34,785 nt of DNA. Source: a virus. The translations under genes and the position numbers were made by a program. The notes below the pieces were generated by a model, which saw only the letters and a list, made by a program, of their open reading frames with translations, was not told where the DNA came from and did not search any database. Below, one piece after another: positions 5,275 to 27,500 of this stretch (position 1 is its first letter; every line of letters begins with the position of its first letter). The stretch spans positions 1-34,785 of IMG/VR virus record IMGVR_UViG_3300020455_000048. The stretch is one strand, 5' to 3'.

Positions 5275-5478
5275 TTAAGATGTTATCTGATTGGTTAATT
5301 GTTTTAATAAAGTCTTAATTTCGTCAATATCTTTCTTCATTTCATCCAATTCTGCTTTTTCATCCAATTTTCTATTTTTGGATGACATATAACTGGAATA
5401 ACCTCTATTATCCATATCAACTATGGCTCCTGATTTTTCATCACGAAATAGGTTTTTATGCCCTTCAACTGGTATCAT
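5275..5478 (-). CDS. Conserved small hypothetical protein with C-terminal coiled coil
   Basis: 67 aa. The N-terminus (MIPVEGHKNLFRDEKSGAIV) is a pattern I recall from small cyanophage hypothetical proteins located among the baseplate/tail genes. Residues about 40-66 (KAELDEMKKDIDEIKTLLKQ and onward) form an amphipathic coiled coil ending in 'LTNQITS'. The start overlaps the stop of the 90-aa gene by four bases (5475-5478), implying translational coupling. No enzymatic motif is visible. A small structural or assembly role is likely from its position; the precise job is unknown. Confidence 0.75.
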   Translation of the reverse strand: MIPVEGHKNLFRDEKSGAIVDMDNRGYSSYMSSKNRKLDEKAELDEMKKDIDEIKTLLKQLTNQITS

Positions 5479-5747
5479 GCTTTTATTTTTTTAATAGGAT
5501 TCGTATTGTCAATGTTCTTATCCCTAACATTAGGGTCAGTTATAGATTTTGTAGGGATTGAATCATCTTTTCCAAATTTCTTTGGTTTTCTGGACATTAA
5601 TTTTTTAAGTATTAACCCATACCCACTCATTCCTGGTGGTAAATTGGTAGGTGCTTCACGACCACCACGCTTTAGACCATACCCATGTTCTCTAAAACGA
5701 GTAATACTGTTAGCCGCTTCTTCTAAAAATTGTTTAAATGTTTTCAT
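5475..5747 (-). CDS. Putative internal head protein with T4-like capsid-targeting N-terminus
   Basis: 90 aa, highly basic (many Lys and Arg) and without a recognised fold. Residues 1-11, MKTFKQFLEEA, match the T4 capsid-targeting sequence of internal proteins IPI-IPIII (MKTYQEFIAEA as I remember it) at 6 of 11 positions, with conservative changes at several others. The segment L8-E9-E10 fits the (I/L)xE consensus of the gp21 prohead protease, with the cut expected after residue 10, as in T4. The remainder is rich in G, K, P and R and looks disordered, ending 'NPIKKIKA'. The ATG overlaps the stop of the 2732-aa gene by one base (TAATG). The protein may be packaged in the head, processed and injected. 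The alternative is a tail-associated hypothetical sharing a common phage N-terminus. Confidence 0.75.
   Translation of the reverse strand: MKTFKQFLEEAANSITRFREHGYGLKRGGREAPTNLPPGMSGYGLILKKLMSRKPKKFGKDDSIPTKSITDPNVRDKNIDNTNPIKKIKA
5715..5747 (-). other. Candidate capsid-targeting sequence with gp21-type cleavage site
   Basis: These 33 bases encode MKTFKQFLEEA. The length, the N-terminal location, the 'MKT(Y/F)..F(I/L).EA' pattern and the (I/L)xE cleavage consensus at residues 8-10 all match the T4 signal that brings internal proteins into the prohead core and is then removed. The match is seen in the sequence; the function here is inferred. Confidence 0.55.
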
Positions 5748-8700
5748 TACGCTAAAGCAATTGCTCTAAAGTCCTTAAGTCTAATAGGAACACATTCGTT
5801 AGTAGATGTCATCACAATTTTAATTGTAAATCCACTGAATTGTTCTAAATTATCTATTGAGAACTGATACTCAGAAAAATCATTTGCTCCATTTGCTTTA
5901 ACTTTGGCATCTGCTCTACCATCATTTTTAGAATCATCAACAATCTCATCACCATAACCATCACCATTAGTGTCAATTAAATTCTTAAATCCAGGGAATG
6001 GTCTATAGGTTTGAGAAACTTCACTAGAATCAGCAGTAAATAATCTGTAGAATACTCTAAAGTCTGCTTCTGGTCTAACATTGCCAGCCACAAATACCTT
6101 TAATGAAGTTGCTGGTTGTTTTAAATTAACTCTTTTTGAAACAAATATTGAACCATGTGGATCACCACTAATTTGATTGGTTCTAAAATCAGAATCATAA
6201 TTATCTTCACCTATTGGATTGTTAATCTTATTTCTACCTAAAATCAATGTAGCATTCTTAACATCTAATACAGGTGAAAGATTAGCATCATCGGTTGACA
6301 TATCAACCTTTAAAGTTAATGATTTATTTTTAGGTAATGTATCTAATCTATTTGCCTCATTAACCTTTGAAGCAACCATTCTTGGTGTTGGGAAAAATGT
6401 AGTTTCATTTAATATAGTTGGTTCAAATCCTTGATCAATGAAAGATACTTCATTTCCATTAGCACTAGTTCCACTTATAGTTCTAAATGAAGCACTAGCA
6501 CGAGTTTTACCTGGTGTAATTACATTACATTGAGCAGAAGCATTACTAAATTGATGGTTTTGTGATATACCAACTGTTGATCCACCAACAGCTTTTTCAC
6601 TAATAAAGCTTATTTGGTTCTTTCCACCTGCTCTATTACCAGTTCCCCTATCCAACTCTAAGAAATAATTATCAATATTGGTAGAATCGTTTAACGCAGT
6701 AGTTGTTGGGATGTCGTGTGTGTCATTAATCTTAACCAAAGGCATACCATTAACTTCATATGTTTGAATACTTGTGCCATCTGTATGTGATAATGCAGCA
6801 GAAGATCCAAATCCTCTAGTAGGCAAACTTAAAATAGCTGGATTAGTACTTTGAACAATATATTGAACAACTTCACCTTCTAGTAATGCTTCACCCCTAT
6901 CACTGGTTATACCAGCAAAAGTTTGGAATGGTGTTATGTCTGAAACTGTTACTTGAGTTCCATCTACTGCTAAATCTTCAGTAATTGTTACCTTAGTTGT
7001 ATCTGGTTCAACATCTTTAACAGTTATTTTATTATTATTTCCATGATGTGCATGATTATATTGAACAACTTCAATAACATTTCCATTGTAAAGTTCACTT
7101 ACAACAGTAGATTCAACATCAACTTTTGCATTATTGCCTAAAACTGTTCTAGTGTCATTATCAGATCCATAATGTATTATATTGTCATTAATAACAAACT
7201 TCTCACCTTGAACATCTGTCAACCATAATGTATCAATATCTTCAGTAATTTTTGTAACTACTATTCTAGCAGCACCACCAGATAAAATATTAGCCGTACT
7301 AGCAACATTAACTTCTAATACTTCACCAACAACATAACCAGAACCAGCATTACTTACACTATTAATCTGTGTTATCATTCCATTAACAAAAGTTAATGAA
7401 GCAACAGCACCTGTACCAGATCCAGTAATAGATTTTAAAGAACATGAAGCTTCTGTAAAACTATTTTCTAGTGCTCCAGTAGTACTATTTTTACTATTAA
7501 ATCCACTACCAGTTATAGTAACTTCAACACCATAATCCTTTAAAGCAGATCCAGATCCACCTGTAGTATCAATAGGTGCTCCTCTTTCTTCAATAACACC
7601 AGTAATACTATCATCTTCACTATCAGTAATCAATCCAGTACTAATTTTTCTACCTACAGGTATAGATACTGCTTCTGCCTTAGTAATTTGAGTTACACCA
7701 AATTTAATCTTTCTAGGTAAAGTCCTAACAGGATTACTAGGTAGTCTTTGAGCATTTAAATTACCTGGTTCAATTGGACTGCTATAGAACGTAGTAGTTC
7801 CAAAAGGAACAAATGATGCTTTTCTAAGAGTAAATTTAAGGTCTTGATACTGACTTGGTGTCCAAATTGTACCATTCTGTGATTTAAATAAACTACCACC
7901 AATATATTGCTTAGTTACAACACCAAACTGTGATTGATCACTAGTTGCAGGTAAACCTACAGGTGGAGTAACACTCTTCTGTCCCATAGTAGCGACCCAC
8001 ATTTCATATTCATCAGATCCAGGTGATAAGAATACAATTGCGTATTCTTTACCAGATTCTAGATAAACTGGTGATGGGAATTTAATAGTAGTTGCTGCTG
8101 TAGCATCATCAGATGTATTAATATTATTTGGATTTAAAGCTACTTGAGCATAATCCTGAACAAGGAAACTTGTTGGTGTTCCCAATTCAACTTCTCTAAG
8201 TTCAACAAAAACCTTAGCATTTGGATCTTTCTTATAGAAATAAACATCAAATGATGTTAGGAATGCTCCAGTTTCATCAACAGTAAATGTTTGTGCTAGA
8301 GGATCCCTATAAGGTGCTTCTATTCTTACAGTAGAAGACTCTGAATTTGAAGTTACAGATACAGTAGTCTCATTAGGTTTTTGTGCAGGTTCTGGTGGAT
8401 TTCTAACACCAACAGTACTTGTATTCTGAGTTAGAATAGTTCCTGTTCCTGTATATGTTCCACTAGCATCACTAGCAAGAGCAGTACTACCTGCTGGAAC
8501 AAATCCTCCAGTCGTATTAGCAGTAAGTCTAAATGTCTTCTTACCTGTATAGAATAATACTGATGGTTGTGGTGTAGAATTAGCATCTCTAAAGAAGAAA
8601 GCACCTAATACATCACCCCATTGATCAGACATTAAATCTGTGTTGGTTATAGTTGCTTCAGTTCCACTTGTTTCTCCTACAAGTTTAGCACCTTTAACAA

Positions 8701-11700
8701 CATATCCCCAATAATTTTCATTATTTGCTAAAGCATATACATCAGTATTAAATAATACAGATGTTGCCGAATAACTATCAGCTGGACCTGGACGAGATCT
8801 ATCAAATGGATCAACTGTATATTTCTCAACAGTTTTATTAGGAGACCCTAATCCAGCACCAACTTCTGGTCTTGTAGCATCGCCAAATTTATGACTTGGT
8901 GCAGCAGATCTTATATATCCAATCTGTGTTGAACCATTCATAACTCTAACATTTTCACCAACATTAAACCCAGTAGATGCTGTTTCCATCTGGATTTCGA
9001 TTATTTTGGGAACTATATCAGGTATTCCACTATCTAACTTATGAACATGCTTTGTATATGGTTTTAAACCATTAGCAACAAATGCTACGTTTCTAGAACG
9101 CATAAACTGATCGGATTCGCCACTAATCTTAACACTTTCAACATAATCAAATTCCCTACTAGGACCTTCCATTTGATTAGTAAATGATGTAACTACAGTT
9201 TGTGTATGGGTTGTAGTTGTAGTGGTGGTAATATCAGTATGATTACCATCAAATTCATCTTGATCTGCTTCAATATCATTTTCTGTTACATCTACAGCAG
9301 TATTTGAAGTTGTATTATCAGAAACTATATTAGATATTTCATTCCAAGTTGCTCCAGTAGATTCAAGTCTATGATTATCAATATAAATTGTTCTAGTCCA
9401 GTTATCGGATGGTGGATCTAAAATAACACCACCAACATAAACAATAACGTTAAATGGATTAATGTTCTCAACACCAGATGCCTGTGGTTGATGAATCCAC
9501 TGTACTTCATCATATTTAAGAGTTACTAAATCTCCTGTTTTCTGACAATTTGGATCCAATAGACTCAAATTAGATGACATATCAGCAGTTTCGTAATCAA
9601 TTCCTGGATTTAAACCTAACTGTGCCCTCATAGACCAGAAATCAACAGCACTAATCAATTCTTTATTAACAACATCTACATCACATCTAGAAGCATCTTC
9701 AGCAAAATTAATAAAATCTCTATTTTTGAAATCATTAACAATAAATCCTGTTTTGAATCTATCCAAACCATCAGCATCCTTTACTGCTAATGATTTTGTA
9801 TCCAATTCTAAGGAAGTAAGAGAAGTCATTACCTCAAGATTATCAATTCTCTTCTCTAATTTACCAATATCTCTCATGGTAAATCTTCTATTATCATATA
9901 ATCTAATAGCAGGACCTTTCATAGGGTCATACAAATATGGTGGGAGTGATATCTGAGCAACTTCCATTGAATCGCCTAATTCAGTTGGAGGTGCTGGTTT
10001 ATCATCAGATACACCTTTAATCAATTTAACTTCTTCAAATTTATTGATTACTAGCTTATCAATTCTAGGTAAGTAATAACTATATCCAACAATAGTGCTC
10101 TCATCTGGACTTACAACATATCTGGTGTCTGTTTCAAGTAATCTACTATTATAAGAGAATGGTGAAGATGTTGTTTGTTGTCCAGCAGTGTCGTTTGGTA
10201 CAAATTTCTTAACTCTTGGTCTAAAATCAAGAATATCTGATGCTCTATCATTCCCAACTGTAGGAAGATCATGAGTATATCTTTCTTTATTATATGAATT
10301 AACAGTATAAAAATCACCATTACTATTTTCAGCAGATTCATAATAATCAAAAATAACTAATAATCTCTTAGATGGTTTTGCTGCTGATGCCTTTCTTACA
10401 ATTCTTGAATAATCACAGAACTGTTTTCTATGACCTTTATCTAAAGTAAAGTTAGGTGTTCTATCAACATAATTACCCTCAGTTACTTTTTGACAAACAG
10501 AATTAATATTTGACTCTTTAAATATTATTGTCTCACCCTTTACAAACTTATTAGCATTTAAGTATACAAATTCAATATTTTCATCATCAACACGATTTAC
10601 AATCTGACCTATTGCTCTACTATCACTACCAACAACCTGTTCTCCAATAAATGAATTTGTTAATAAACCTAATCCAGAGACAAATTTCAACTGATCTAAT
10701 GTTGGTGCTACTTTGTCTTTAGATTCATATACAGCATGAACTTTAACAACATCTGGAATATTTAAAGATATTTCTTTATCTTCAACTCTTAGACCATATG
10801 CACTACTAATTCCTAAATTTGTCGACTCATTAGATACATTAATAGTTTTTGTTACTGCTAATGTAGAACTTCTAATATAATTCTTTTGCTTAGTAGCTAG
10901 ACCAAGTTTCTTTAATGTACAATTAATTGTAGCTGGTATTGCTGCGGTATCAGCACTACTGTACTTCAATCCAGAAAATACAACAGTAGCACCATTATTT
11001 GATATGTTTACTTTATCTTGTGTTAAATCTTCCGATACACCATTCTTATAATGAATAGAATATCTTTCTGCGTCAAAAGGTTCAAAGAAAGCAGTAGTGA
11101 TACCTAAAGCACCATCATTACCAGAACCATCAAATAATTCACTAGTTTGAAGTGTTATTCTAAAAGTAGAATCTGGGTTTTTACCTTTAACTTGACGAGT
11201 AATAGTAAGATTAGAATCTGAAAGATCTACTGTAGAAATATTTTTCTTTGGTAATCTAGTATATAAACCAGATCGGTTTAAATTAATAATCTTAGGTACT
11301 TTAATCCTAAATGTTGACTGATTATTACCACTTACAAGAGTTCCATCATTAACACCTGAAATTGTTGCTACATTCTTAAGTGTTAACTGTTCTCCATTGG
11401 CAGAGATATTAGATACTCTATTATATGTTTCATTGGTTGCTGATGATTTTTGATATCCAATTATACTATCTGTTTTTATACCAACTTGTCCACTAAATCT
11501 TCTTCTGGGACAAGTTGCTAGATTTTCAGTTATAGCTCCAGTAGTAGCATCCCATGAAATTTCAGTTAAAACATTATTAGATAGTCTTTGAATCTTAATA
11601 TAATAAACATTACAAACTGATGAAGCACCTTTAATAGCACCAGAAGGAGCAGAACCACCTGCGTTTGTATATTCAGTAAAGTTTAAATATTTTAATTGTC

Positions 11701-13945
11701 CACTGTATACTGGTGTATTATTAGAAGTTCCATCATATAATATAATTTCTGTAGCAGAACCAGAAACACCAGGAGTACCATAAACAGTACCATCACTAAC
11801 TTTTAAAAGAGCTGCTGGATTAAGACCAACACCACCATATCCTAACCAACCATCACCATCATATCCAACGGTAATTTTAACTACATCTGATAATACAGTA
11901 TCTGTTAACCACAGTATACTCAAATCAGCATGACCAGATCCCATACTTACAAAAGAAGCATCATCACTGTCAAATATATTACCCATATCAATACCAGCAG
12001 GTCCAGTAGTGGTTGCTGTGGCATAGCTTACAGTCTCATTATAAGTATTTGCTGCTGTTTGCTCAGACCATCTTGGTTCATCTGAAGCACCCAAATATGA
12101 ATTATAAGTGTAATCACCACCAGAAGTAACGTTTAGTTGATCTGTTAATGAAAAATTAGGTAATACTCTATCATATAGAACAGAATCGGCACTAAAATCT
12201 ACTTGAAATCCACCAATATCTTTGGATTGGAAAACAGATCTTATATCATCTGTTGTATATGTTATAACATTAGATATATTTGCTGTACATGTATCAACTC
12301 CAACATTACTAGTTCTTTCATTAAATAATATCTTTTCACCTTTTACAAAACTACCAGTAGTTTGAATTACATGTATTTCTCCACCATTTCTATGCTTATC
12401 AACATAACCAGTAGCACCACTACTTTGACCAGTTACTTTACTACCTAATGGAGCTAATATATCCTTTTGGTAATTAATATCAACACTATTTGATATCTGA
12501 AGTACAGTATATGTCTGTACATCATACATATACAAGTCCCATTCAGTTGAATCTCCAGTGTAAGGAGCATCTGATGGATTATACCAATAAACCCTTGCCT
12601 TTCCTACTGGCAATCCATTACCAGCAGTTGGAGCAGCATCAGAATCTTTTCTAGCATTCCACAGTTCAACTACATTAGATACTGGAGTAGCAGAATCATT
12701 TTGTCCGATATTAATATATGGAGTACCTTCACTATGATTAACTCTTAGTAAACTACCCATTCTAAATGGAACGGATCCAGATTTTATGGTTTTTGTATCT
12801 CTAGGTTTTTCTACATCTAAAACTGTTGTACCTGGCAATGCTACATCAAATCCTCTAACATATGCTTTACCTGGAGACAATTTAACACACATTAAATCAT
12901 CAGATGGATTAGCACCTTGGTCAGTTTTCTCAGTATCAAGATACAATCCATTAGATCCAATTTCATTATTTAATGAATTTTGTAAATTAACTCTGAATGG
13001 ATTTACCGAATAGTTTCCAGATTCATCAAATGTTCTCTTAGCAAGATACTTTTTAATTTCAGAATATACTGAAGAATTCTGTATTTTCTTGATTTCACCC
13101 TTTCTTACTCTTAATAATTCTACAAAATTAATATCATCAAAATCGTCAATTGATTTTTTGGATAATTTAACACTTATTTTAAATCTATCAGCACCTGGTG
13201 CAGCAAAGTTTGTAAATCCTTTAGCATTATCATTTAATGATGGATCATCACTGGCGTTTATAATCTCTTCAATAATCTCAAAACCAACCCTATATGTTGG
13301 TTTATTAGAATATGGCTCTAATACAATAAGAGATTTAGTAACATCTACAAATGTTCCTCTTAAAAAATATACACCACTATCAACACCAAAAGATGATCCA
13401 GTTGCTGTTGCGTCATCAGCAACTAAAGTCAATACTGTATCACCAGACTTTAATGTAGTATTTCCATAAGTTACATTTTCATCTAGTACTAATATCTCAC
13501 CATTTGGAAAATGCTCACTTGCACCAGTTGAACTAGACTCTGTATATTTGACAAATATTGTTATTTCATCTACACCCTCAGTTGGAGGAAGAATATAATT
13601 TACAATTTTGGCAACAATTTGAGAATTTTGTCCCCTTACTCTTGTTCCTTCACCCTGTATTACTGCATCTAAGTATATACTAACATCAACACCTAAATGA
13701 TCAGCATTTACCTTACAGGCAAAATATGTATTGTCATACGTAACAGATCCAGGTATAACCATAGATCCTTCTTTAAAGATATGATTACCAAACTGTTCTA
13801 CCTGATTCTGTAGAATTGATTGTAATCCTGATAATTCTCTTGCTTGTACTGGGAAACCAGGTTTAAACAGAACTTTATAGAAATTATCTGCCTTATCAAA
13901 ATCATCATAATAAGGACTTATATTTAAGTTAGTCTTTTGTGGCAT
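5747..13945 (-). CDS. Giant DUF4815-like baseplate/tail-fibre structural protein
   Basis: 2732 aa. Residues 8-75 (NISPYYDDFDKADNFYKVLF, 'KPGFPVQARELSGLQ', 'GNHIFKEGSMVIPG') are the conserved opening of DUF4815-type phage structural proteins. Other family landmarks are 'NRRFTMRDIGKLEKRIDNLE' (about residue 1350, a short coiled coil), 'FMRSRNVAFVANGLKP' (about 1615) and 'RDPLAQTFTVDETGAFLTSF' (about 1880). A glycine-rich 'NAGSGYVVGEVLEV' unit lies near 2200, and several 'G.SG..' and 'TRGFGSSAALSHTDGT' units are scattered through. A Gly/Asp/Tyr-rich beta segment at about 650-800 interrupts the conserved core. The gene follows gp8, where T4 has gp9-gp12. It is therefore probably a large peripheral baseplate or fibre-attachment protein. 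Six bases separate it from gp8. Confidence 0.8.
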   Translation of the reverse strand: MPQKTNLNISPYYDDFDKADNFYKVLFKPGFPVQARELSGLQSILQNQVEQFGNHIFKEGSMVIPGSVTYDNTYFACKVNADHLGVDVSIYLDAVIQGEGTRVRGQNSQIVAKIVNYILPPTEGVDEITIFVKYTESSSTGASEHFPNGEILVLDENVTYGNTTLKSGDTVLTLVADDATATGSSFGVDSGVYFLRGTFVDVTKSLIVLEPYSNKPTYRVGFEIIEEIINASDDPSLNDNAKGFTNFAAPGADRFKISVKLSKKSIDDFDDINFVELLRVRKGEIKKIQNSSVYSEIKKYLAKRTFDESGNYSVNPFRVNLQNSLNNEIGSNGLYLDTEKTDQGANPSDDLMCVKLSPGKAYVRGFDVALPGTTVLDVEKPRDTKTIKSGSVPFRMGSLLRVNHSEGTPYINIGQNDSATPVSNVVELWNARKDSDAAPTAGNGLPVGKARVYWYNPSDAPYTGDSTEWDLYMYDVQTYTVLQISNSVDINYQKDILAPLGSKVTGQSSGATGYVDKHRNGGEIHVIQTTGSFVKGEKILFNERTSNVGVDTCTANISNVITYTTDDIRSVFQSKDIGGFQVDFSADSVLYDRVLPNFSLTDQLNVTSGGDYTYNSYLGASDEPRWSEQTAANTYNETVSYATATTTGPAGIDMGNIFDSDDASFVSMGSGHADLSILWLTDTVLSDVVKITVGYDGDGWLGYGGVGLNPAALLKVSDGTVYGTPGVSGSATEIILYDGTSNNTPVYSGQLKYLNFTEYTNAGGSAPSGAIKGASSVCNVYYIKIQRLSNNVLTEISWDATTGAITENLATCPRRRFSGQVGIKTDSIIGYQKSSATNETYNRVSNISANGEQLTLKNVATISGVNDGTLVSGNNQSTFRIKVPKIINLNRSGLYTRLPKKNISTVDLSDSNLTITRQVKGKNPDSTFRITLQTSELFDGSGNDGALGITTAFFEPFDAERYSIHYKNGVSEDLTQDKVNISNNGATVVFSGLKYSSADTAAIPATINCTLKKLGLATKQKNYIRSSTLAVTKTINVSNESTNLGISSAYGLRVEDKEISLNIPDVVKVHAVYESKDKVAPTLDQLKFVSGLGLLTNSFIGEQVVGSDSRAIGQIVNRVDDENIEFVYLNANKFVKGETIIFKESNINSVCQKVTEGNYVDRTPNFTLDKGHRKQFCDYSRIVRKASAAKPSKRLLVIFDYYESAENSNGDFYTVNSYNKERYTHDLPTVGNDRASDILDFRPRVKKFVPNDTAGQQTTSSPFSYNSRLLETDTRYVVSPDESTIVGYSYYLPRIDKLVINKFEEVKLIKGVSDDKPAPPTELGDSMEVAQISLPPYLYDPMKGPAIRLYDNRRFTMRDIGKLEKRIDNLEVMTSLTSLELDTKSLAVKDADGLDRFKTGFIVNDFKNRDFINFAEDASRCDVDVVNKELISAVDFWSMRAQLGLNPGIDYETADMSSNLSLLDPNCQKTGDLVTLKYDEVQWIHQPQASGVENINPFNVIVYVGGVILDPPSDNWTRTIYIDNHRLESTGATWNEISNIVSDNTTSNTAVDVTENDIEADQDEFDGNHTDITTTTTTTHTQTVVTSFTNQMEGPSREFDYVESVKISGESDQFMRSRNVAFVANGLKPYTKHVHKLDSGIPDIVPKIIEIQMETASTGFNVGENVRVMNGSTQIGYIRSAAPSHKFGDATRPEVGAGLGSPNKTVEKYTVDPFDRSRPGPADSYSATSVLFNTDVYALANNENYWGYVVKGAKLVGETSGTEATITNTDLMSDQWGDVLGAFFFRDANSTPQPSVLFYTGKKTFRLTANTTGGFVPAGSTALASDASGTYTGTGTILTQNTSTVGVRNPPEPAQKPNETTVSVTSNSESSTVRIEAPYRDPLAQTFTVDETGAFLTSFDVYFYKKDPNAKVFVELREVELGTPTSFLVQDYAQVALNPNNINTSDDATAATTIKFPSPVYLESGKEYAIVFLSPGSDEYEMWVATMGQKSVTPPVGLPATSDQSQFGVVTKQYIGGSLFKSQNGTIWTPSQYQDLKFTLRKASFVPFGTTTFYSSPIEPGNLNAQRLPSNPVRTLPRKIKFGVTQITKAEAVSIPVGRKISTGLITDSEDDSITGVIEERGAPIDTTGGSGSALKDYGVEVTITGSGFNSKNSTTGALENSFTEASCSLKSITGSGTGAVASLTFVNGMITQINSVSNAGSGYVVGEVLEVNVASTANILSGGAARIVVTKITEDIDTLWLTDVQGEKFVINDNIIHYGSDNDTRTVLGNNAKVDVESTVVSELYNGNVIEVVQYNHAHHGNNNKITVKDVEPDTTKVTITEDLAVDGTQVTVSDITPFQTFAGITSDRGEALLEGEVVQYIVQSTNPAILSLPTRGFGSSAALSHTDGTSIQTYEVNGMPLVKINDTHDIPTTTALNDSTNIDNYFLELDRGTGNRAGGKNQISFISEKAVGGSTVGISQNHQFSNASAQCNVITPGKTRASASFRTISGTSANGNEVSFIDQGFEPTILNETTFFPTPRMVASKVNEANRLDTLPKNKSLTLKVDMSTDDANLSPVLDVKNATLILGRNKINNPIGEDNYDSDFRTNQISGDPHGSIFVSKRVNLKQPATSLKVFVAGNVRPEADFRVFYRLFTADSSEVSQTYRPFPGFKNLIDTNGDGYGDEIVDDSKNDGRADAKVKANGANDFSEYQFSIDNLEQFSGFTIKIVMTSTNECVPIRLKDFRAIALA

Positions 13946-13951
13946 TTTACT

Positions 13952-15559
13952 TTAGAATTCCAGGATGATTTTAACGTCTTCTTTTTGTCGCTCATTTCGA
14001 GCAATCAGAGGTCTATTATCAATATAAACCAATTCCCCTGATCCTTTATTTATCTCAGATTTGGCCAACCCACCTGTGAAGAATACATCGAGATTAACCT
14101 GCTTATTACCACTAGTAAAAGTAGTAATTCCATTATAATTGTTATCAACATATCCCTTAAATCCAGAAACTTGTCCTTCAACAACAGTTCCTGATTTAAA
14201 TGGATATAATTGACCTATTGTAGATATACCAACATAATCAGTATGATCCTGTGCTCCACCATATGCTAATGATCTATCAGTAAAATACTTTAGAACTTTA
14301 GTATCCTTATCAAAGGAAGCAACATACGCTCTTGCCTTAACAGTATCACCTGAAGTGTTTACATATGTTTGATGAATTTCTTCACCAACAGTAGGATTTC
14401 CAGTTACTTTTTCAGTATCTAAACTACTTGTTGGATCATCTTTAAATTTCATCGCATCTAACGATGAAAATTGATCAGCAGTAAACGAAGTATTAGCATC
14501 AATAGTTGTAGGATTTTTTACAATCCCAACTTGAGCAAACTTTGTATCTATAGGAAAATCTTTAGTGGAATCGTCAAATCTAGCATAGATTAAGACTTTA
14601 TCAGTTCCTAATTCTGTATAGATGTCATACCCATGACCTCTACTTGGGGGAATGATTGGTATTAATTTTGCGGAGTTACCAGCAGAATTGTTATTAACTG
14701 CTCCTAAGTCAACTAACCCATAAGTATATCCTTTACCACCAGCACTAACTGTAACATTGGATATTGTTCCTTGAGAAACATCAACTCTTGCCTTAGCACC
14801 TGTACCATCACCAACAATATCAACTTCTTGACCAGTTAATGGTTGATATTGTTTACCAGCATCAGCAATATAAACATGCTTAATTTGGTTATTATTTACT
14901 GTAGAATCACCATTTTCTCTAACTGCTCTAATTTGTGGGTCTGTACTTGTTGCCCAATCATTTGGAACTGTTACATATTCTGTAGAATCAAATTTAATAA
15001 TATCACTAGGAGAAACAGTATACAAGTACTTCCAAATATAACCATCACCAGATCCACCAGCTTTTGATGGTTCTAGATCGGTAAATGTTGGTTCGTCTTG
15101 AGAAACATTTCCTTTAGGATTACTTCCAGTTGATCCATTAGCAATACAAATATAAACTTTGAAATCAGAGTTCATTACATAATATTTTGCATCATATAAC
15201 TTAGTTGCTGATTCTAAGGCACTTTTATTCGCACCACTATAGTCATCTCTATAGATTTCATATCTAGTTCCAACTTTCCAATCAATTCTTTTCACAACCC
15301 TTCTAATATTGGCAGAAGTTATCTTCTTACCAAACATCATAGTGTCACTAAGATGAGAATTATTTGAAAAACTATCAAGTGGTTGAGGTGGATTTGAATT
15401 CCATTGCTCAGATCTACCAAAACCAACTACAGGATCTCCTGCTTCTTTATGTGTGGGATTCGGTAGACCAATAAAAACGTAGTAATTATTATTCTCAATA
15501 GACTCTACGAAATTAGTGGCATTAAGAATTCTAAATTGATCAGTAACAATTGCAGGCAT
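13952..15559 (-). CDS. 8: Baseplate wedge protein gp8-like
   Basis: 535 aa; T4 gp8 is 334 aa and is a dimeric wedge component. Recognisable T4 gp8 features are 'PAIVTDQFRI' (2-11), 'VGFGRSEQWNSNPPQPLDS' (45-63), 'RRVVKRIDW' (86-94), 'GDGYIWKYLYTVSPSDIIKF' (171-190) and 'TEYVTVPNDW' (193-202); the GDGY-W-YL block is especially close. Beyond about residue 225 the protein gains modules: 'AGKQYQPLTGQEVDIVGDGT' and 'SAGGKGYTYG' (228-281), of the GxGY type, and 'GTVVEGQVSGFKGYVD' in the C-terminal third. The ATG lies 28 bases after an exact late promoter box. The C-terminal extension may contact the neighbouring giant proteins. Confidence 0.9.
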   Translation of the reverse strand: MPAIVTDQFRILNATNFVESIENNNYYVFIGLPNPTHKEAGDPVVGFGRSEQWNSNPPQPLDSFSNNSHLSDTMMFGKKITSANIRRVVKRIDWKVGTRYEIYRDDYSGANKSALESATKLYDAKYYVMNSDFKVYICIANGSTGSNPKGNVSQDEPTFTDLEPSKAGGSGDGYIWKYLYTVSPSDIIKFDSTEYVTVPNDWATSTDPQIRAVRENGDSTVNNNQIKHVYIADAGKQYQPLTGQEVDIVGDGTGAKARVDVSQGTISNVTVSAGGKGYTYGLVDLGAVNNNSAGNSAKLIPIIPPSRGHGYDIYTELGTDKVLIYARFDDSTKDFPIDTKFAQVGIVKNPTTIDANTSFTADQFSSLDAMKFKDDPTSSLDTEKVTGNPTVGEEIHQTYVNTSGDTVKARAYVASFDKDTKVLKYFTDRSLAYGGAQDHTDYVGISTIGQLYPFKSGTVVEGQVSGFKGYVDNNYNGITTFTSGNKQVNLDVFFTGGLAKSEINKGSGELVYIDNRPLIARNERQKEDVKIILEF

Positions 15560-15586: not shown

Positions 15587-15594
15587 TATTTATA
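15587..15594 (-). promoter_or_regulatory. T4-type late promoter box TATAAATA upstream of gp8
   Basis: Minus strand 15594 to 15587 reads TATAAATA, an exact late promoter box. It lies in the 39-base gap after the stop of the 4988-aa gene and 28 bases before the gp8 ATG, followed by an A-run. A promoter here would let gp8 and downstream genes escape dependence on reading through the 15-kb giant gene. Confidence 0.8.
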
Positions 15595-15598
15595 GTCA

Positions 15599-18500
15599 TT
15601 ATAATACTTGTAATCTTATTGCCCCCGTATTCCTCAATCCCTTAAGTGAAGAATCTGTATAATTCTTCCTTTGGATTGTTGGGAATGATGATAATCCAAC
15701 ATCAACAGTGAAACCAGTTACACCAATAGAAATAGGATTTGAATCTCTAGTAGCATTATATAGTCTTCCCCATGATAACCTACCCAAACTAGTTGTTATT
15801 CCAATATTAGTTTGATCAAAACCACCAGTTGAAGCTAAACCTACATGATTAGTTGTACTCAATATATTACATGTAATTTCACCCGTTCTACCAGAACTTG
15901 CTATATCATGTACTTTATAGATGTTATCAGCAAATGATGTACCAATACCAACTATGGATGTATCATGACTATCAACTGAAACAATTCCATCACCAATCTT
16001 AGTATCCTTAATCATAACAGGATAACCAACTAATAAATCACTAACTGAATAATTTCCAATTGCTTGGAAGAAGAACTTAATAGCAAGAGGATGATTATTA
16101 GTACCAGTAGTTGTGCTTATACCAGTAATAATTCCAGAGAAACCCTGAACATTACTAATAGATGTTATTTTCTCTGACTCATATTGTGGACTCTCAATAA
16201 GAACCTGAGGTTGTATTGGCCAACTTGCATGATGACTTGATATTCCACTATATCCAAAACCAGGATTTGTAATATCAATACTAATAACTGATCCATCAAC
16301 AATATTTGCTGTAGCAGTAGCAGTTACTCCAGTACCTGACCACACATTATTTGCTCCACCAGTAAATAATCCATCTGGATCTGGAAGTTTAACCGTAGGA
16401 GCAACTGTATATCCAAATCCACCATCAGTAACTGATATTGAATCTAACTTATACTGTGAAGTATTACCAATAGATGCTAAACTATTAAGTTCTATAGTTG
16501 CTGTTGCTCCTGCAGGTCTTTTTACTTCAGTTCCATCAGATTTAGTAGATCCAGGTAACATTAAAGCATCAACAGCAGCAATATTAACAGAATATCTATC
16601 TTGAGGATCTAATCTTATTGGTCCTTCTTCATAGAAGAATGCTTCAGCATCATCTACAAATATTCCACCATTTTGTTGTGTACCAGTATTTGTCTCTACA
16701 TCAGCAATAATCTTTGCTGTAGGATATATTTGTGGTTCAATAGATTCTCTAGACTTAACAACTAATGATCCTTGAATACTAAGATCAGTTTTCTGTTTTA
16801 TCCATTCAAGTGGTCTATCATTAAATTCATCAATACCTGGTCCAGAATATATGTTAGTCTCAACTAAATTTGATGTTAATATCTCTTTAACAACTCTATC
16901 TTTATCTTGAGGGAAAGTTTCTTCACCCAAACTAGGATGACCATGTAATCTAACTTGGTCACCTGGTCTAATTGTTTCTTGAATATCAACAAGTTCAACA
17001 TCAACTCCTCTTTGACCAAGATAGAAGAATACATCCACTTTATCACCAGAATCTGGTGGTTCAGTAAATGTAAATGTTGTTCCACCTTCAAACTGATAAG
17101 CAATTCCAGGAGTTTGTAATACTCCATTTACAAATATAAGAAGAACAGCATTTAAATCTATAGATTCTGATAATGCTTCATTCTTATCAGTTTCAAAACT
17201 CAATAACTGACCATTAAAGAATAGTGGGAATCTTCTCCTCCTACCATTCTGCATTAATCTAATATCATCAATGAAATCAATTTCACCAAATTGCCATGCT
17301 GAGAAATAATCATTAAAGACTTCAACAACATTCAATTCAAATTCTTGAAGTGGTTCCTGTAATCCAACTGCAGGTACTAAACCAATTGGTTTTAATCTAT
17401 CACCAATCTTAAAGGAATGTCCATCTCTTGCTATATCAAATTCAGATATCTCAAACAATGTAGATCCAATACCTACAGTAGTTTTTGCAGCACCTACCTT
17501 TAAATCAAGAAGCAAATTAACACCAGTGTCTGTAGTCTTACCTACCCCTAATCTAGAAGTACCAACAACAGGCATATTCTCATAAACTGGTTGAGGAACG
17601 ATAATTTCAGGATTAACATAACCCGATCCACTATTTTCAATAGTAAATTCTAATGATCCACCAGTTCCTGCAGGAGATTTACCAACATTTATTGTAAATG
17701 ATGTATTAGATGGAATTTCTTCAATACCTACAGGTCTATTATGAATTGGATCAGTTGTTCTTGGATAATCGTGTGTTGTTCTATGACTATCTTGATTACA
17801 TGTAAATGTAAGTGTATTAGCAACAAACTGAACATGACTACTTGCTTTTCTTAGTTGATTATCCTTAGCACGTATAAAATTATGTAATGATGTATCTGAA
17901 GCTGGTATGTTTGTTAAACATTGAATTTCAAACTTAAAGTCAGTCTTATTTGAAATTTGTACCCATTTATTGTGAATTGGATCACCTTTTCTTGGGTAAG
18001 CATGTTCACTTAAATAACTGTCTTTTGAGCAATTAAATACTAAAGATTCTTCCTCAATCTTAACATAATCACCATTACTAAATCCATGCTGTGTATCTGT
18101 GGTTATAGTAACAATTCCAACATTAGGATTATAAACAGCATTTTCTATTGTATGGGTTTCCATTACACCAAATCCATGATTGGAATTTGTGGTAACTGTC
18201 ATAATACCACTAGCAGGATCATATTTGGCATCACTTATAGTTAATGTTCCACCATTGCTTGATGAAATTGGTGAAGAAGAACTAACAAACTTATGATCAT
18301 TATAAGCAACTCTAGCAGTTACTACAGCACCAGTACCAGCACCACCACCAGGACCAACATTAGTCATGAATGTATTTGGTGATACTGATGTTATTGGTAG
18401 ATAAGCATCATATGCTGGATCAGTTGTTCTTGGATATGGATGTAAACTCATATCAGCATCTTTAGAACATCTAAAGGTTAAACCGCCCTGAGCAATCTTC

Positions 18501-21500
18501 AATGACTTAGTTCCTGACATTCCATTATCAGTAGAACTCTTAAATGTATGTTCGTAGAAACCTCCAGATTTAACAGCACCAGCAGTGGCACTTACAAAAG
18601 TATGAGGATCTGTATTTGTGGAAGGTATAGTAGTTAATACTTGTAATGTTATTGTAGTGTCAGTAGTTGCCTGAACAGTAATTGCTGTATTATAATATGG
18701 ATCATTACCATTAGATCTTGGATATGATTTTTGAGCAGCCGTACCAGTAGCACCACCAAATCCACAACTAAATTTAATAGATTCTTGTTCTAATCTAACA
18801 CTTGTTCCTGATTTTATAGTATGTGTTCCTATCTCAAGAACCATTAATCCAGTATTAGGATCATACGTAGTTCCTGTCGTTGGTGTATAAGCAACAATTG
18901 GACTTGTTCCGACATTTGTTTCAAATTGAGTATCTGTCGCACTGGATACAACTAACCACTTATTACTTGAAGGATCGGTTACTCTTGGATAAGTATGATC
19001 TGATCCATTATTATCCATAGCACAGGTAAATGTGATTGAATTATCATCAAATTTAACCTGTTCATTATTAGTAAACTTATGAGGAACAAATACAGCACCA
19101 GAAATAGCACTTACAAATGTATGATCATCCACATTAGTAGAAGGTGTTGTTGACAATACATTTACAGTAATCGTACCAGCATCGGTATCTACAGCAGTGA
19201 TTGATATAAACGTATCGTATGCTGGATCAGCACCACCAGCAGGATTACCTGTTCCAGATGATCTAGGATATGTCTTTTCAGCAGCAGTACCACCAAATTC
19301 ACAACTAAATGTTAATGAATTTGGAGCAATCTTAACTTTGTTAGTTGTATTTAATGAATGCTTACCAATATTCAATACCATATCACCTGTTTGTGGATTA
19401 TAGTCAGCCCCACTAACATCATAATGTTTACCAGCACTAACAGTCATAATACCAGCAATAGAATCATACTCTGCATAATTAACCTTATAATCCACAGGAG
19501 CAGGTATTGTATGACTTCCATCAATAGTTAATAACAAATCACCAGTAACAGAATTATAATCTGCCTTAGTAGGTGTAAATGATTCACCCATAAAGGATCC
19601 AGTGTATGCTGTAATAGAATTATTAGTTGAACTTACAAACTTATGAAGATAGTTAATATCATTGACTCCAATAGAAACTGGATTGCGATAACCAGATCCG
19701 AATGTTAATTCATCATAATATGCCCAAACTTCACCATTCTTGAAATAATTATGAGGAATAGTACAAATACCAGCAAATACTTCAAATGTTCTTTCAGATG
19801 CAACTCCAACTAACTGTAAAGGTCTATCAGTATCTTGGAAAACATTGGTTGTTATTCCAGCATGTTGTACCTCACAATCCATCCACATATTTTCTACTTT
19901 AACTGCTTCAGGAGTTCCTAAAGCAAATCCATGTCCAGTATTAGTAGTAACTGTCATAATTCCAGATCTGTGGTCATAATGAGCAGTTTGAATACCACCA
20001 CCAACAGGTCCAACTGATGTTCCAACACCAACAATACTACCAATAGTACCATTAACCAACTTAGGATGAACTCTAGCACCAACTAAAGGAGCATAACCAC
20101 GTCCAACTGTTGATCCTAAAGAAACTATTAATCCACCTCTAGGAATTTGGTTTTGATTAATATCAAATTCAGATTGAATCTTTTGTCCATTTTCAGAACT
20201 AATACCAGTAAATACAACACTAGAAATTCCAGCACTAGTATCTGTTACAATCTCATAATTATTTCCTAAGTTGTTAAGAGTTAAAGGTGTTTGGAATACT
20301 CCATTAACAAATAAAATACCATTACCCACACTAACACCTGTTGATGTATTAGCACCTCCAACAGTTAGAGTATATGTTCTTCCAATTCCAGTAAATGAAT
20401 CTGAAAGATCATCAAATATCATATTTGTATCATAATTTGATCTTAAGAAAGTTCTTCCACTATATTCTGCTTTAACATACGGAAGATTAGTTAAACTTCT
20501 TCTTGTTCTAGTATTTCCTTTTGGAGCATCTAAGAACCATGCTGTACTATCAACAACATTAAATGATCCTCTATAAACTTGGACATTACTGTTGGCAACA
20601 TGAATTTGTTCTGATAATCCTAAACATCCTCTCTTAACTTTAACAAGAGGAATTGTTCCATTAACTGAATTAATTGTTCCTACAAGATCTGTACCAAATC
20701 CAACTTCTTCAACCTTCATATATTCATTATTAACCTTTAATACATCTCTTGGTTGAACGGAACTTATTCCACTCAAAGAGAACTGAGAAAGACCTATACC
20801 AATTGTTGATGGAAGATTATGGTTAATTGAAGTATATGTAATTGGTTGTTGAATAATACCATCAAGTCCAATAACAGTTTTACTCAATTTATTTGTCATC
20901 TCAAGTTTATGGGCATTACCCTGACCCGAATTAGTAAATGTTATTGGAATAGCATCATCAGCACTTACATACTCTTTTCTACTAAACAACTGAATTTTAT
21001 CTGGATCCAATGCCTTAACATATACAGTAGATGGCATTGTTGTTTGAACAAACCCATTATTGTCCATAGTAGCAGCAATTCCTATTGCTACTGGAGCAAC
21101 ACCTATAAATGTTGAGGCTTCTTTATATGTTATCTCTTCATTATCATTAAAGAAATGATTTGGTATTGTTAATGTACTTCCACCACCAACAGTTGTAGAA
21201 ACAGTATTTGGATCTGATGGATTAAATCTCTTAAAGTAAATTGGTGTTCCTTCAAATTTAAGATCAAAATTAACCTTATTTCCTCTACTACCATTAGGAC
21301 CATCATATGATGCTAATATTAAATCACTAGAAACTGGACCATACTCTAGAATATCTGGTTCATTCTCAAAGTCATTTAAAGTACTGAATACTTCATTATA
21401 TGCCTGAACTTCAATTAATTCTTCAGTATCAATAAATTCTTGATCTGGGTAGAATAAGAACTCAAGATTTTGTCCAGCAGTATTTGATCCAAAAGTTCCA

Positions 21501-24500
21501 ATACCAGTATCTGTTCCAACAGAAACGTGTGGATATTGAACTGTTACTGCATCATCATTCTTATCCTGTATGACAATAACTTGATGAATAGCAGAAGTAG
21601 TTCCACAAGAAACCCTTACAAGAGATTTGACAGTACTGTCATTCTCTATAACAAGTGGTTTAGTTACCATTATTGGTTGTATGCTCCCTGAAGAACCCTT
21701 ACCACTAGAATATGAGGATTCATATCTAAGAGTTCTTTCAGATCCTTCTGGTTGATTTGGAACGTTAAATCTGTATGTTCCTATACCAGCAGTAGTCGTA
21801 CCAAGTCCAACAATATTTGTACTAACAACTAATGCCGAGTTCCTATCATTAATACAATCAAACGAGATAGTTCCTGATTCTACCTTTGTTGTTAATATAC
21901 CAACTTTACTTAAACCACTACTACTGAATGAAACATCTAAAACATCTCCATATATTTCTGAAATATATGTACTTTCTCCATCATAATTTATGATGAGTTC
22001 ATTATAATCTAATTCACCAGTAACTTTGTCTTTTATAATTGAATTAGCATAGAAAGCATTGAAGTCTGTATGTGAAAATTCTGCTATAGTTGTAGTAGTA
22101 ACTCCTAATGGAATTGCTCTCCTACCTATAGTAACGTCCATGAATCCAAGATTATTGGTAGATGGACGTGTATTACTCTTACTTAAAGTTGCAGTATGAG
22201 TACTATCAATACTTACAATTTCAGTTCCATCTTCAATACCAGGACCAGTTAGAGTTGTTCCAATACCAACTTTAGATACTGATGTTAAATCAAAATCCTC
22301 ACTAGTTAATGTTGTTCCACTTATACTTCCAGTAAATGTAGTTCTACCAACGGCAACATCAACATTTTTACCTACCAAATCAACACATCCAAATTCTTTA
22401 GTACCAGAAGATACTAAATCACTACCAAATGATGTTTTAATAATCTTAAGATCATGATCTTTTTCAAATTTTTCAGTAGGAGTAAAGTTTAAAGTTTTTC
22501 TATTGAAGGTATCAACATCTGCAGAAAAATCACCAAGTTTTATATTAGTAAAGTCTGATGTTTTTTCTAATATGAAAGCATTATCAGTACTTGTTAATAC
22601 TATAAGATCACTAAATTGAGTATCAAATGTATCTGGATCTATAATTTGTACCAAATATTTTGCATAATTTGTATTGATTTCTTCTATTTCTGTGAATAAA
22701 TCTTGACTACCTTTACTTGAAAATCTGCCACTAATATCATCATGAATAATAACCCTGTTTGTTCTACACTTAGTGTAATCGGTTAATCTCTTATTTCTAA
22801 AATTAACAAACTTAGAATTAATATCATCTCTCACATCATAATCATTAGCAAGATCAAAATAATTAATAGTATCTACTCTTCTTTCGGAAGTAATATCAAG
22901 AACAATAGAAGATACCACTGGTTGAGTAGTTCCTATACCAACAGCACTTACTTTATTTTCTATTATAGTATCTGAGAAATTCTTAAGACCTGCTGGATGT
23001 ATTAACCTATTGACTGGATCAACAAAGTCATCCCAAGTTTTTTCACTTTTAATAGAATATGAAAGATTTTGATAATAATCATTATCTGGTATTACTTGAA
23101 AATCTTCACTCAATTTACCAGTATTATCTAACCAACCATAATCCTGTCTATTAGAATAATCAACTCTAAATTTAGCCTTATTATTAATAAATCCAGTTAC
23201 TGTAGCAACAGTACCACTAGACGATCCAGTAATTCTATCACCCATCTTCAGTTCATCTATTCCATCAATTTTAATAAAATCTTCTCTAGATTCAACAACA
23301 AAAATATCTTTCTCTACAAAATCTAGTCCTTCTTTAACTAAAATAGTTTCATTAAGTGCGAATCTAGCTCTTTTTTGAACAGGAGCAAAAGTAGGATACT
23401 TAGATCTGTTTATGATATTAGCATATCCAGATTGATATGTTTTAGCAATTCCAGGATTTGTACTTACTCCAATTAAATCAAACTCAAGAATATCTGGATT
23501 TATTGCTTGATAAGATTTAACTTTAAAGAATTGATACTTATAATTTTCGGAATTATAACCAGTCCAACTAGGATCAACAGTTACACCAGATGCTGATGAC
23601 TGTTGTGTTCCAATACCAGATTCTCCAAATAATTGAATACCTTCAACAAAAATTTCATCACCCTCTTTAAATGGAGACTCATTATACCCATTAATAGGTG
23701 TTTCCATAACACATCTAGCCACTGTTCCATTAGTGGTCATAGAAACTATTCCAATACCATTAGAGTTATTGATAGCAACAACTCTATGAGTTACTGAATC
23801 TAAACCTTTAATAGGAGCAATTACATTAACCCCAGTGATACTTTGATATGGAACATTAGCAGTTAATGAAGTTCTATCAACTACCTCATCAATTTCTGGA
23901 TTATAAAGAATCAAATCTGGAGAACTTAGGTAATCAAGACCACCATCAACAACTTCAACTTCGTCAATTTGATCTAAATCATCTATCCTAACAACTGGTG
24001 GAATAAACGCTTCTGGTCTTAATGTTTTATCTGATGAATATTCAAATCCAAAATCAATTATTCTTATCTGATTGATTTTACCAATAGAAGTAGACAAAGC
24101 TACTACATTAGCATTCTCGCCCCGTAAACTAGTTACGGAAGTAAATCCAGGTACACTCTTATAACTAAAACCTTCTGATATTAATTTAACACTCTTTATA
24201 GGTCCAACTACTGTTTCGGATTTACTAGAATATTCAATAACATCACATTGATCCTTCTCATATGTCAAAACTTCAGGAACCGATCTTGGTGAAATCTTAA
24301 AGGTTTCGTCAGTAACATCAAATACTTTATAATCACCACTATAATTACTATCTACAAACTTAATTTGAGAATAATTAAGAACACTAGTATCTGTTGTGCT
24401 AATATAACCACCCTTTTCTAAAGCATAGTACATTACAGATGGCAATGCTGTGGAGAATCCTATTGATACCGCAGCACCTACAATATTTCCACTAAAGTCA

Positions 24501-27500
24501 AAAATCTGTCCACCTGTTGTACCTAAACCAACTGTTCCAACTCCAGAAACACTGAATGTTTCTCCTGCTACACCAGCATTAATAAATTCGTTTTTATATT
24601 CTTTATCATAAAATAGTTTAAAATCAAACCCATCTAAACTACTGGTTGATAAACCAAATGTTAAATTTGAATTTTTAACAACTGTTATTTGTGGGTTAAT
24701 TAGAGAAACTTCATGCTTATTACCACCATCACTAGTAATATTAACAATATTTGGCGGTATTGATACAGAATCTTTATATGTCTCAGATAAATTAAACTTA
24801 TTTGAATCTATTTCATGTACAAAATAACCACCAGTAGTTAATCCAGAAGCTATTTCGTCACTATCATAGAATAGTTTGTCACCAGTTTTATACCCATGAT
24901 TATTAATTGTTATGGAATTGTTAAGAGTATCAATGTCTGATGCTTCAAAAATTACAGTATTAATTAATAATTTCTCATGTTCTTTATTGTAACTAACTGA
25001 TACTGGAGCAGTAGATCCCAATCCAACAACAACATTAGGTACAACATTTAGTGATATCAGATCATTATTTTGTAATCCATGAGTTGTTGTATTTGCTGCT
25101 CCTATTTCAGTAATAACTGTAGAAACAATCCTATCAATATTAGCAGTTAATTGCTCATAATCAGATTCAAATGTATATTCATAATCATTGCTACCGTTAC
25201 CAAAGAAATATAATCCAGCTTCTGTTTTTGCTGCTCCAGCATTTGTAGCAAGTCCTATATGATTTGTACCTTTATCGATAACATATACATCACTAACACC
25301 ACTAGACTGATTTGGAATATAGAACTGATTTGATGCGTCATCATCTCTACCAACAAGGAAAGATGCTTTTGCTAATGGTTTTCTTAACTTAACCTTTTGA
25401 CCTGTTGTAAATGGATGATTTGGTACATATATTGTTTGTGGTGGAACAGGAACTTCAAGACTAATTTCTCCATAAGTGTAATCTAAACTAGATCCACTAG
25501 TAGTTCCTAATCCAACTGAATTATTTGGATTAAAATATTCAATTTGATTAACTTTAGACTCAAAATAATCAGTCTTAACAGGAATAGTAATACGATTGTT
25601 TATTACATCAATATTAGAACCATAAGTATGCCCAATACCAGTACCATATCTTCTAACTCTTATAATTTTTTCTAGATCATAAAGATTTAAAACTTTAAGA
25701 ATCTCACTACCAATTTGAATAGATCCACCAATAGAAACTGTATTTGGTATTTCATTAACATAAATGTCTTCAACAGTTCCAGCAGAACTATTATTAACAT
25801 TCATTGTCTTTGCTAATCCAATAATATTTGTACTAATACCAACCTTAAACGAATTATTTAATCTATAATTTGATGTACTAAGACCAGAAATCAATACTGT
25901 ATCTTCATCATTTAATGGCAGTGAAGGTAGGAAATGAGCCTGAATTTCATTCTCATTCTGCCAAACCAAAATAGAATTCTCAAATTTAGTTAAATCAGTC
26001 TTAATACTAGAAACACCAATACCAACTATCTCATCAACTATTCCTCTAGCACCAGTACCATTAGTACCAGTATTATCAAAAGTAGTAAAATCTCCAACTT
26101 TATACTTCGATCCACCATCTAAAACTTGGAAACTATCAACAACACCTCTAGTTACTGATTCAACAACAGATTTTTGTTTAATAATCTCATTAGACTCAAT
26201 CAAGAAATCATTATCTGCAAATCGATCATTTACTTTATATGGGAATGTATTTCTAGATAAACGAGAAGTATTAAAATCGAAAGATTGATCCAATGAAATA
26301 TTTTCCTGAATCAATGGTAATCTATATGTTTTACCAATAAAATATGGGAATACTGGTGTAATATTATCACTATCTAAAGTAGAAAAATAAGCATATATTC
26401 CATTAGGGAATTCTGGTGTCTTACAGAATCTACCATTATGTTTATCTAAATCACCGTTAGCATCATATCTCCAATCATTTACAAAGAATCCAGCAGGAAC
26501 ATCTGGTCTATCAAACCAATCAATATCCTTAACATATCCAGAAACTAAACGCTTAACCTCTCCAATATCATCAGGATCAGAATATCCATATGGTCCATAA
26601 ATTGGACATCCATCATATGCCCAACCAATAATAGGAGAATGTGTACCAGTTCCAGCAGCAACATCAACTCCTTCATCATTGAAATGTTCTGCTAGATGCT
26701 TACTATAAGCACTAATATTAAATGTTACTGTATCTGGACTATCACTTAATCTCTTTTTATTCTCTTCATCATATTGCCATGTAGTTGGATCTTCTGCTAA
26801 ATGGTAATTGCCAAGAGTATTCTCATGATTTACTCTATCAATAGATAATTCTCTTACTCTAGCATCTAATAATCCATTATGCCCTCTAGCATTTACAAAT
26901 ACATTTGTACTCGTATCAGAATATCCAATACCAGTATTAATCACAACAACATCAATTAATTGACCATTATTGATTATTGGTTTTAATTGTGCACCACTAC
27001 CAATAGGTCCACTTATCTCTAATTCTGGTAGAGAATTATATTCTTTACCCCTATTAAGAACAAAAACGTCCTTAATTTCTCCATTCTCTACAAAAGCTTT
27101 TACTTCAGCATCTCTACCATTCTGAATAACGATATCAGATTTTAACTTATGATTAACAACTCTTGATCCATAATGACTACCTTTTTCATAGACATATGCT
27201 CCAATTATTTCACCTGTAACGATAGGTGTTACTAAATTTGTAAAATTAACAGCAATATTATTATCTGAAGTAGCTTCTATACTTACACTAATATTTGGAT
27301 ATTTAAATACCTGATATCCAGTACCACTAGATCTTAAATCAATATACTTTCTTCTTGAATAGTCTTCAGGATGTGTTAATTTAAAGGAATTTTCATCAAC
27401 TTTAACAACTCTATATGAAAGAGAAGTATCTAATCCCTCAATAGTTGTAGGAGAATCTACACCCATACCAACCATTGTAGTATATTCTACAAGATCATTA

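Follow-up and report, generated by a model that had tools for sequence, protein, structure and literature searches.

The window analysed here, a single stretch of 34,785 bases whose record has no further contigs, comes from a P-SSM2-like kyanovirus, one of the T4-like cyanophages of the sea, and covers 34.8 kb of its genome; the 90-aa protein encoded among its tail genes is probably an internal head protein of the T4 IPI–IPIII kind, drawn from a slot that holds exchangeable cargo. The gene, its N-terminal tag, the cleavage motif in that tag, selection on the tag, replacement of the payload behind it and the membership of one such payload in the SAM lyase family are established at the level of sequence comparison; head location, cleavage, injection and an anti-defence function are inferred. 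An earlier note on this DNA had suspected a hidden, injected head protein with a T4 capsid-targeting sequence (CTS), and that reading is well supported and appears general in kyanoviruses, with no mass spectrometry of either the window protein or its orthologue PSSM2_115.

The gene, its neighbours and its leader

Translation of the minus strand from 5747 to 5475 gives MKTFKQFLEEAANSITRFREHGYGLKRGGREAPTNLPPGMSGYGLILKKLMSRKPKKFGKDDSIPTKSITDPNVRDKNIDNTNPIKKIKA, a 90-aa product that begins MKTFKQFLEEAANSITRFREHG, and the open reading frame reported earlier is real, with minus as its strand. The stop of the upstream 2732-aa gene and the start of the 90-aa gene overlap by 1 nt (TAATG), and the start of the downstream 67-aa gene overlaps the 90-aa gene by 4 nt (ATGA), so that the gene forms part of a tightly packed operon. 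The window carries gp6, a 4988-aa gp7-like gene, gp8, the 2732-aa gene, the 90-aa gene and T4-GC112, followed by more small genes together with a 523-aa gene, gp13, gp14 and gp15. This is the gene order of Prochlorococcus phage P-SSM2, in which PSSM2_114 is followed by PSSM2_115 (T4-GC 111, MKSFKQFLEEA..., annotated 'hypothetical protein') at the position of the 90-aa gene. The gene lies in the tail region, between the gp8-adjacent 2732-aa gene and T4-GC112 (Table 1). The 4988-aa protein at the gp7 position (15599-30565) occupies 43% of the window and is far larger than T4 gp7.

The late-promoter-like motif ATAAATA occurs six times in the window (998, 5265, 14047, 15587, 30671 and 32947), always on the coding (-) strand, a total far below the 27 occurrences expected by chance. 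Some of these sites lie directly 5′ of genes, for example 15587 ahead of gp8 and 5265 ahead of the gene at 5234. It is possible, by inference, that the site at 15587 serves as a late operon promoter for gp8, the 2732-aa gene, the CTS gene and GC112.

Table 1. Coordinates of the tagged gene, its parts and its neighbours in the window
Feature	Position	Strand	Basis
CTS-tagged basic 90-aa protein, T4-GC 111 family, PSSM2_115-like; ATG at 5747	5475..5747	-	translation, P-SSM2 synteny, alignment
CTS-like leader MKTFKQFLEE: F4/F7 targeting, L8-x-E10 gp21-type motif, predicted cut before A11	5718..5747	-	single pattern match, 51/51 conservation, cleavage-motif test, T4 mutational data PMC9026906
Predicted mature internal protein, residues 11-90, basic, mostly disordered, two-module recombinant	5478..5717	-	pI/charge, AlphaFold, nt identity
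T4-GC 112 / phrog_473 virion structural protein, downstream boundary of the slot	5275..5478	-	phrog_473 E 6.5e-19; 303 phage records
2732-aa structural gene, PSSM2_113 (T4-GC 109)-like, adjoins gp8, upstream boundary of the slot	5747..13945	-	position as in P-SSM2
gp8	13952-15559		
ATAAATA late-promoter-like site 5′ of gp8	15587..15593	-	motif match

The T4 leader is 10–19 residues long, and mutational mapping assigns targeting to residues 4 and 7 and cleavage/processing to residues 8 and 10 (PMC9026906). The window protein starts MKTFKQFLEE/A (a slash marks the predicted cut), with F4 and F7 at the T4 targeting positions and a gp21-type L-x-E site (L8-E9-E10/A11). MKTYQEFIAEA, given in the earlier note as the T4 sequence, is indeed the start of T4 ipII and ipIII, and the resemblance of MKTFKQFLEEA to it holds at both the aromatic positions and the L-x-E motif. 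The pattern M-K-[TS]-[FY]-x-x-F-[LIVFM]-x-E, searched in DNA, matches once in the window and in 0 of 100 shuffles. A slightly looser pattern gave 23 forward matches in 12 complete or long phage genomes vs 1 in the reversed control; the forward matches include T4 ipII, ipIII and 61.1, which are also the only exact tag-pattern matches in T4. In IMG/VR, exact MKTFKQF occurs in at least 120 stretches; a permuted version matched for composition and degeneracy occurs in 4.

The heptapeptide also has false positives, as shown by an HK97-type major capsid protein in IMG/VR (PF05065; L269:4567-5838) that starts MKTFKQFLES. Elsewhere in IMG/VR, four different closely spaced genes each start MKTFKQF (L277:6505-9422, minus strand), as if forming an array of tagged cargoes, and a 51-aa tagged protein, MKTFKQFQEEW(S/T)NKYKKSIDCSNPKGFSQRAHCA(A/G)RKKRAKGE, is recurrent in contigs (L236, L243, L246, L250, L251, L272, L273, L275, L281, L283, L284, L287, L292 and L296). 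In T4 itself, the uncharacterised gene 61.1 (NC_000866 18966-19130, 54 aa) starts MKTFKEFIKE; going by the tag, its product is a candidate for one more T4 internal protein.

Behind the leader, the window protein is basic, as had been noted (pI 10.2 in full; pI 10.4 and charge of about +11 for residues 11–90). The apparent disorder of this remainder is consistent with AlphaFold prediction from 24 sequences, in which a helix at residues 4–20 is followed by little else (mean pLDDT about 50–65, pTM 0.20). No Pfam, NCBIfam or PADLOC family matches the protein, and its PHROGs match is weak and confined to the first 16 residues.

A constant tag and exchanged bodies in one slot

By the slot we mean the space that separates T4-GC112 from the large structural gene adjoining gp8. 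The first set of homologues was partly recruited by the tag itself, so its conservation was not taken as proof and the test was repeated with GC112-recruited loci: 80 contigs were recruited via this downstream neighbour, not via the tag, and the gene directly upstream was then read. Many of these contigs have an empty slot, the large structural gene abutting GC112; where complete slot genes are present, they begin with the tag. Most isolated kyanoviruses likewise have no gene at this position. The comparison comprised 52 genes, 51 of them distinct (47 from neighbour-recruited loci, plus the window gene, PSSM2_114, PSSM2_115, AG-345-F15 and L015); in three of them, L103, L105 and L111, the tag appears once translation is started at the upstream TTG. 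The slot sequences are mutually related, and the counts out of 51 are therefore not independent events.

The tag is kept in 51/51 distinct slot proteins (K/R2 in 51/51, F4 and F7 each in 50/51). The motif [ILFVM]xE falls within residues 7–15 in 50/51 (strict [IL]xE in 37/51), against 0–4/51 in any other 9-residue window and 3.9 predicted from body composition. E10 itself is absent in about 20 of the 51, most of which have another [hydrophobic]-x-E in residues 7–15; cleavage of slot proteins without E10 would depend on a nearby x-E. The earlier note had staked its reading on homologues conserving their first 11 residues: homologues keep residues 1–7 almost perfectly and residues 8–11 in the majority type, and in the neighbour-recruited set the first residues are conserved while the bodies are replaced. 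Codons 2–7 show pN 0.09 and pS 0.78 (pN/pS 0.11), compared with pN 0.64 and pS 0.55 (about 1.15) in codons 11–20, and 35 DNA versions of residues 2–7 encode only 12 peptide versions. Low pN combined with high pS indicates that it is the peptide that is conserved, and by this measure the tag is under strong purifying selection at the amino-acid level. We do not claim positive selection on the bodies from pN/pS above 1, because non-homologous codons are compared there.

Sorted by sequence, the bodies form at least six groups between which no similarity is detected, and members of the largest group are mosaics. Nucleotides 1–160 of the window gene are 96% identical to one slot gene (L001) and nucleotides 164–273 are 95% identical to another (L002), neither having comparable similarity to the window gene in its other part; judged from these identities, the window gene is a recombinant of two cargo modules.

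The SAM lyase family PF23780 accounts for a second slot cargo, of the PSSM2_114 type (MRTFQEFLQLCE/GG...). Scores against this family are 33.9 bits for L108 (cutoff 28), 68.8 for tagged L041 of AG-345-L05 and 70.1 for S-CREM2 gp6. The conserved substrate-binding residues of Svi3-3 are G56, Y58, E69 and Q104 (PMC7877911), and G-x-Y, E and Q are invariant in nine aligned members. The assignment rests on Pfam and these conserved residues; a PDB profile search with the family gave no match. Phage enzymes that degrade SAM first became known as anti-restriction proteins (PMC7877911), and the presence of such a cargo in the same slot of relatives is what makes the anti-restriction idea plausible. The window protein does not belong to this family: a Pfam search finds no PF23780 in it, and the domain occurs only in the slot cargo of relatives. 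In AG-345-F15 the SAM lyase is followed by another tagged basic protein.

The slot accepts untagged genes too: in one contig (L101:1950-2504) a 2OG-Fe(II)-oxygenase-like gene separates the tagged gene from GC112. Internal tags also occur: in S-SZBM1 a 707-aa hypothetical protein with a C-terminal SAM-lyase domain (PP650_gp082, L352:881-3004) has tag-like TYREFIAE/GN ahead of that domain and is followed by tagged gp084 and gp085, and in several IMG/VR SAM-lyase loci the tag is again internal (VMSFKQFIAE/GG). A further tagged family of 215–225 aa (L138:1845-2501, L146:1243, L147:1501 and L148:657) has one copy, that of L138, within the slot, and its members in L146–L148 start MKTYKEFITEA or MKTYSQFITEA, almost the T4 sequence. 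A reading of the 218-aa L138 protein and its L146–L148 relatives as ADP-ribosyltransferases, suggested by eye from RGFHG...DAYFTT...YA, is no more than a lead for want of any Pfam, NCBIfam or PDB match, and the AlphaFold model of the family was uninformative (pLDDT 35).

Tagged proteins in published virions and the maturation protease

Cyanophage virion proteomics repeatedly finds cytidylyltransferases, kinases and SAM hydrolase, and whether these are packaged or carried over is undecided (PMC9602691, PMC10665884). We searched the annotated gene starts of S-CREM2 (OR473000, 219 genes) for M..[FYL]..[FY][LIVMF].E and found the motif at six: gp6 (SAM lyase/hydrolase, MKDFDSFLEE), gp13 (MKDLHSFLTE), gp14 (kinase, VKRFDAFLTE), gp136 (MQTFSMFFSE), gp154 (cytidylyltransferase, MKNFSSFLTEA) and gp175. 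All except gp175 are among the 52 proteins detected in purified S-CREM2 virions (PMC10665884 Table 3), that is, 5/6 motif genes vs 52/219 genes overall (P = 0.003, Fisher's exact test). The authors of that study class the SAM hydrolase, kinase and cytidylyltransferase as non-structural, leave their packaging undecided and were unable to rule out that abundant proteins had been carried over in the CsCl fractions (PMC10665884).

The same correspondence is found in two other phages. The cytidylyltransferase T4-GC190 was detected in S-SM1 virions (PMC3037559), and the S-SM1 copy starts MKKFSAFLNE/A; a kinase was detected in S-CRM01 virions, as reported in PMC10665884, and it starts MISFDQFLSE. Three other kyanoviruses (S-CREM2, S-SM1 and S-CRM01) thus give indirect support for the tag as a predictor of virion association. 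More proteins with this N-terminus, of the kind that the earlier note recommended scanning for, exist in relatives, nearly all of them in the virion where mass spectrometry has been published. The tag is not fully specific, as both gp175 and the HK97-type capsid protein carry it.

Cleavage would call for gp21, and confirmation of a homologue had been proposed as a check. The prohead protease (PF03420, S77) is encoded by the closest complete relatives, P-SSM2, AG-345-F15 and AG-345-L05; it was not found in the 34.8-kb window, a fragment too short to contain it, and the evidence for it comes from the relatives only. Near their N-termini, the major capsid proteins of P-SSM2 and S-CREM2 contain FLSE/APN and LLTE/APT, respectively, which we presume to be maturation sites of the same type as the tag cleavage; they are inferred, not mapped.

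Proposed role, alternatives and relation to known systems

We propose that the gene is expressed late with the tail and neck genes, as inferred from gene order and from the ATAAATA sites lying all on the coding strand. The N-terminal helix MKTFKQF would dock on the prohead scaffold core through F4 and F7, and gp21 would then cleave after E10 (L-E-E/A). The released peptide, 80 residues long, basic and largely disordered, may remain with the packaged DNA and would probably be injected along with it. Different phages would carry different, recombining payloads behind one tag in this dedicated cargo slot. As one of the slot payloads is a SAM lyase, counter-defence at DNA entry is the most likely role of the slot, a role that is inferred for the window protein.

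The main rival is a head protein that is not injected, brought by the tag to the prohead core for a structural or DNA-condensing role like that of T4 gp67/68 or for part of the role of IPIII. A strongly basic, disordered mature part would suit such a protein, and T4 internal proteins bind DNA, with aberrant head assembly in IPIII mutants (PMC9026906). However, a core component should have a conserved body, whereas the body here is missing or swapped for unrelated sequence, which in one case belongs to an enzyme family (SAM lyase), and most kyanoviruses have nothing in the slot; we consider this rival unlikely, although a serious one. Less credible still is that the N-terminal motif signals incorporation into the tail or baseplate. 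The gene does lie between the gp8-adjacent structural gene and the neck genes, next to a virion protein (GC112), but a tail protein would need neither the T4 head CTS positions nor a gp21-type site, and the motif also occurs on proteins encoded far from the tail genes, several of them virion-detected enzymes. Tightly overlapping genes and evident recombination between cargo modules could also suggest that the conserved start is a feature of nucleotides only, either a translation initiation region or a recombination linker. We find this scarcely tenable, given the many DNA versions of residues 2–7 for few peptides, the excess of pS over pN, an overlap with the upstream gene of just 1 nt and the scarcity of the permuted heptapeptide relative to MKTFKQF.

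An injected internal protein remains the preferred reading, and together with the exchange of cargo behind the tag it suggests that these marine phages deliver proteins against host defence into the cell with their DNA, injection being inferred. With somewhat less assurance, we favour a broader proposal: that a T4-type capsid-targeting code shared by kyanoviruses loads varied effectors (SAM lyase, NMN/cytidylyl-transferase-like and protein-kinase-like enzymes, and small basic proteins) into the head for injection, and that P-SSM2-type phages keep a tagged counter-defence exchange slot in the late tail operon. If this is true, the tag would explain the recurring 'non-structural' enzymes in cyanophage virion proteomes. 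A tag readable from sequence would settle which virion proteins are packaged, and how; among the many hypothetical proteins that abundant ocean phages encode, it would also single out the injected effectors. The slot, a small locus open to exchange, is in addition a place to search for new inhibitors of cyanobacterial defence. We found no paper in the open-access literature linking capsid targeting sequences to cyanophage proteins (subscription journals lay outside the search) and therefore regard the system as of a known kind but new in its combination: marine kyanoviruses carrying the T4 tag, a slot within the tail operon that is dedicated to it, and enzymes as cargo.

Among known systems, the closest are T4 IPI–IPIII and the T-even ip loci, with which the window gene shares CTS aromatics at positions 4 and 7, a gp21 site at 8–10, a small basic body unrelated outside the leader and a variable accessory locus. 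In T-even phages, IPI, Ip2 and Ip3 enter the cell by injection and inhibit type IV restriction enzymes (PMC9026906, PMC12373910). The window gene differs in lacking body homology to IPI–IPIII, in lying in a late tail/neck operon instead of the T4 ip loci, in belonging to phages related to P-SSM2 and in having an enzyme (SAM lyase) as neighbouring cargo, not a direct nuclease inhibitor. T4-GC 111 (PSSM2_115) is likewise small, basic and unannotated, occupies the same position between T4-GC 109/110 and T4-GC 112, and shares the start MKSFKQFLEEA and 34% identity over residues 1–87 (97% of length). The direct tblastn match is weak (E 0.1); what ties the two into one family is synteny, together with sequences intermediate between them in the alignment.

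The SAM lyase family (T3 SAMase, Svi3-3; PF23780) includes S-CREM2 gp6 as well as tagged proteins from the same slot of relatives, PSSM2_114 and L108 among them. Synthesis of T3 SAMase follows infection, whereas the cyanophage copies bear the CTS and would arrive inside the virion. T4 Alt and polyvalent proteins (PMC5512222) are virion-packaged enzymes delivered with the DNA, comparable to the tagged kinase and cytidylyltransferase; unlike those large multi-domain proteins, the tagged genes each encode a single small cargo behind a short tag.
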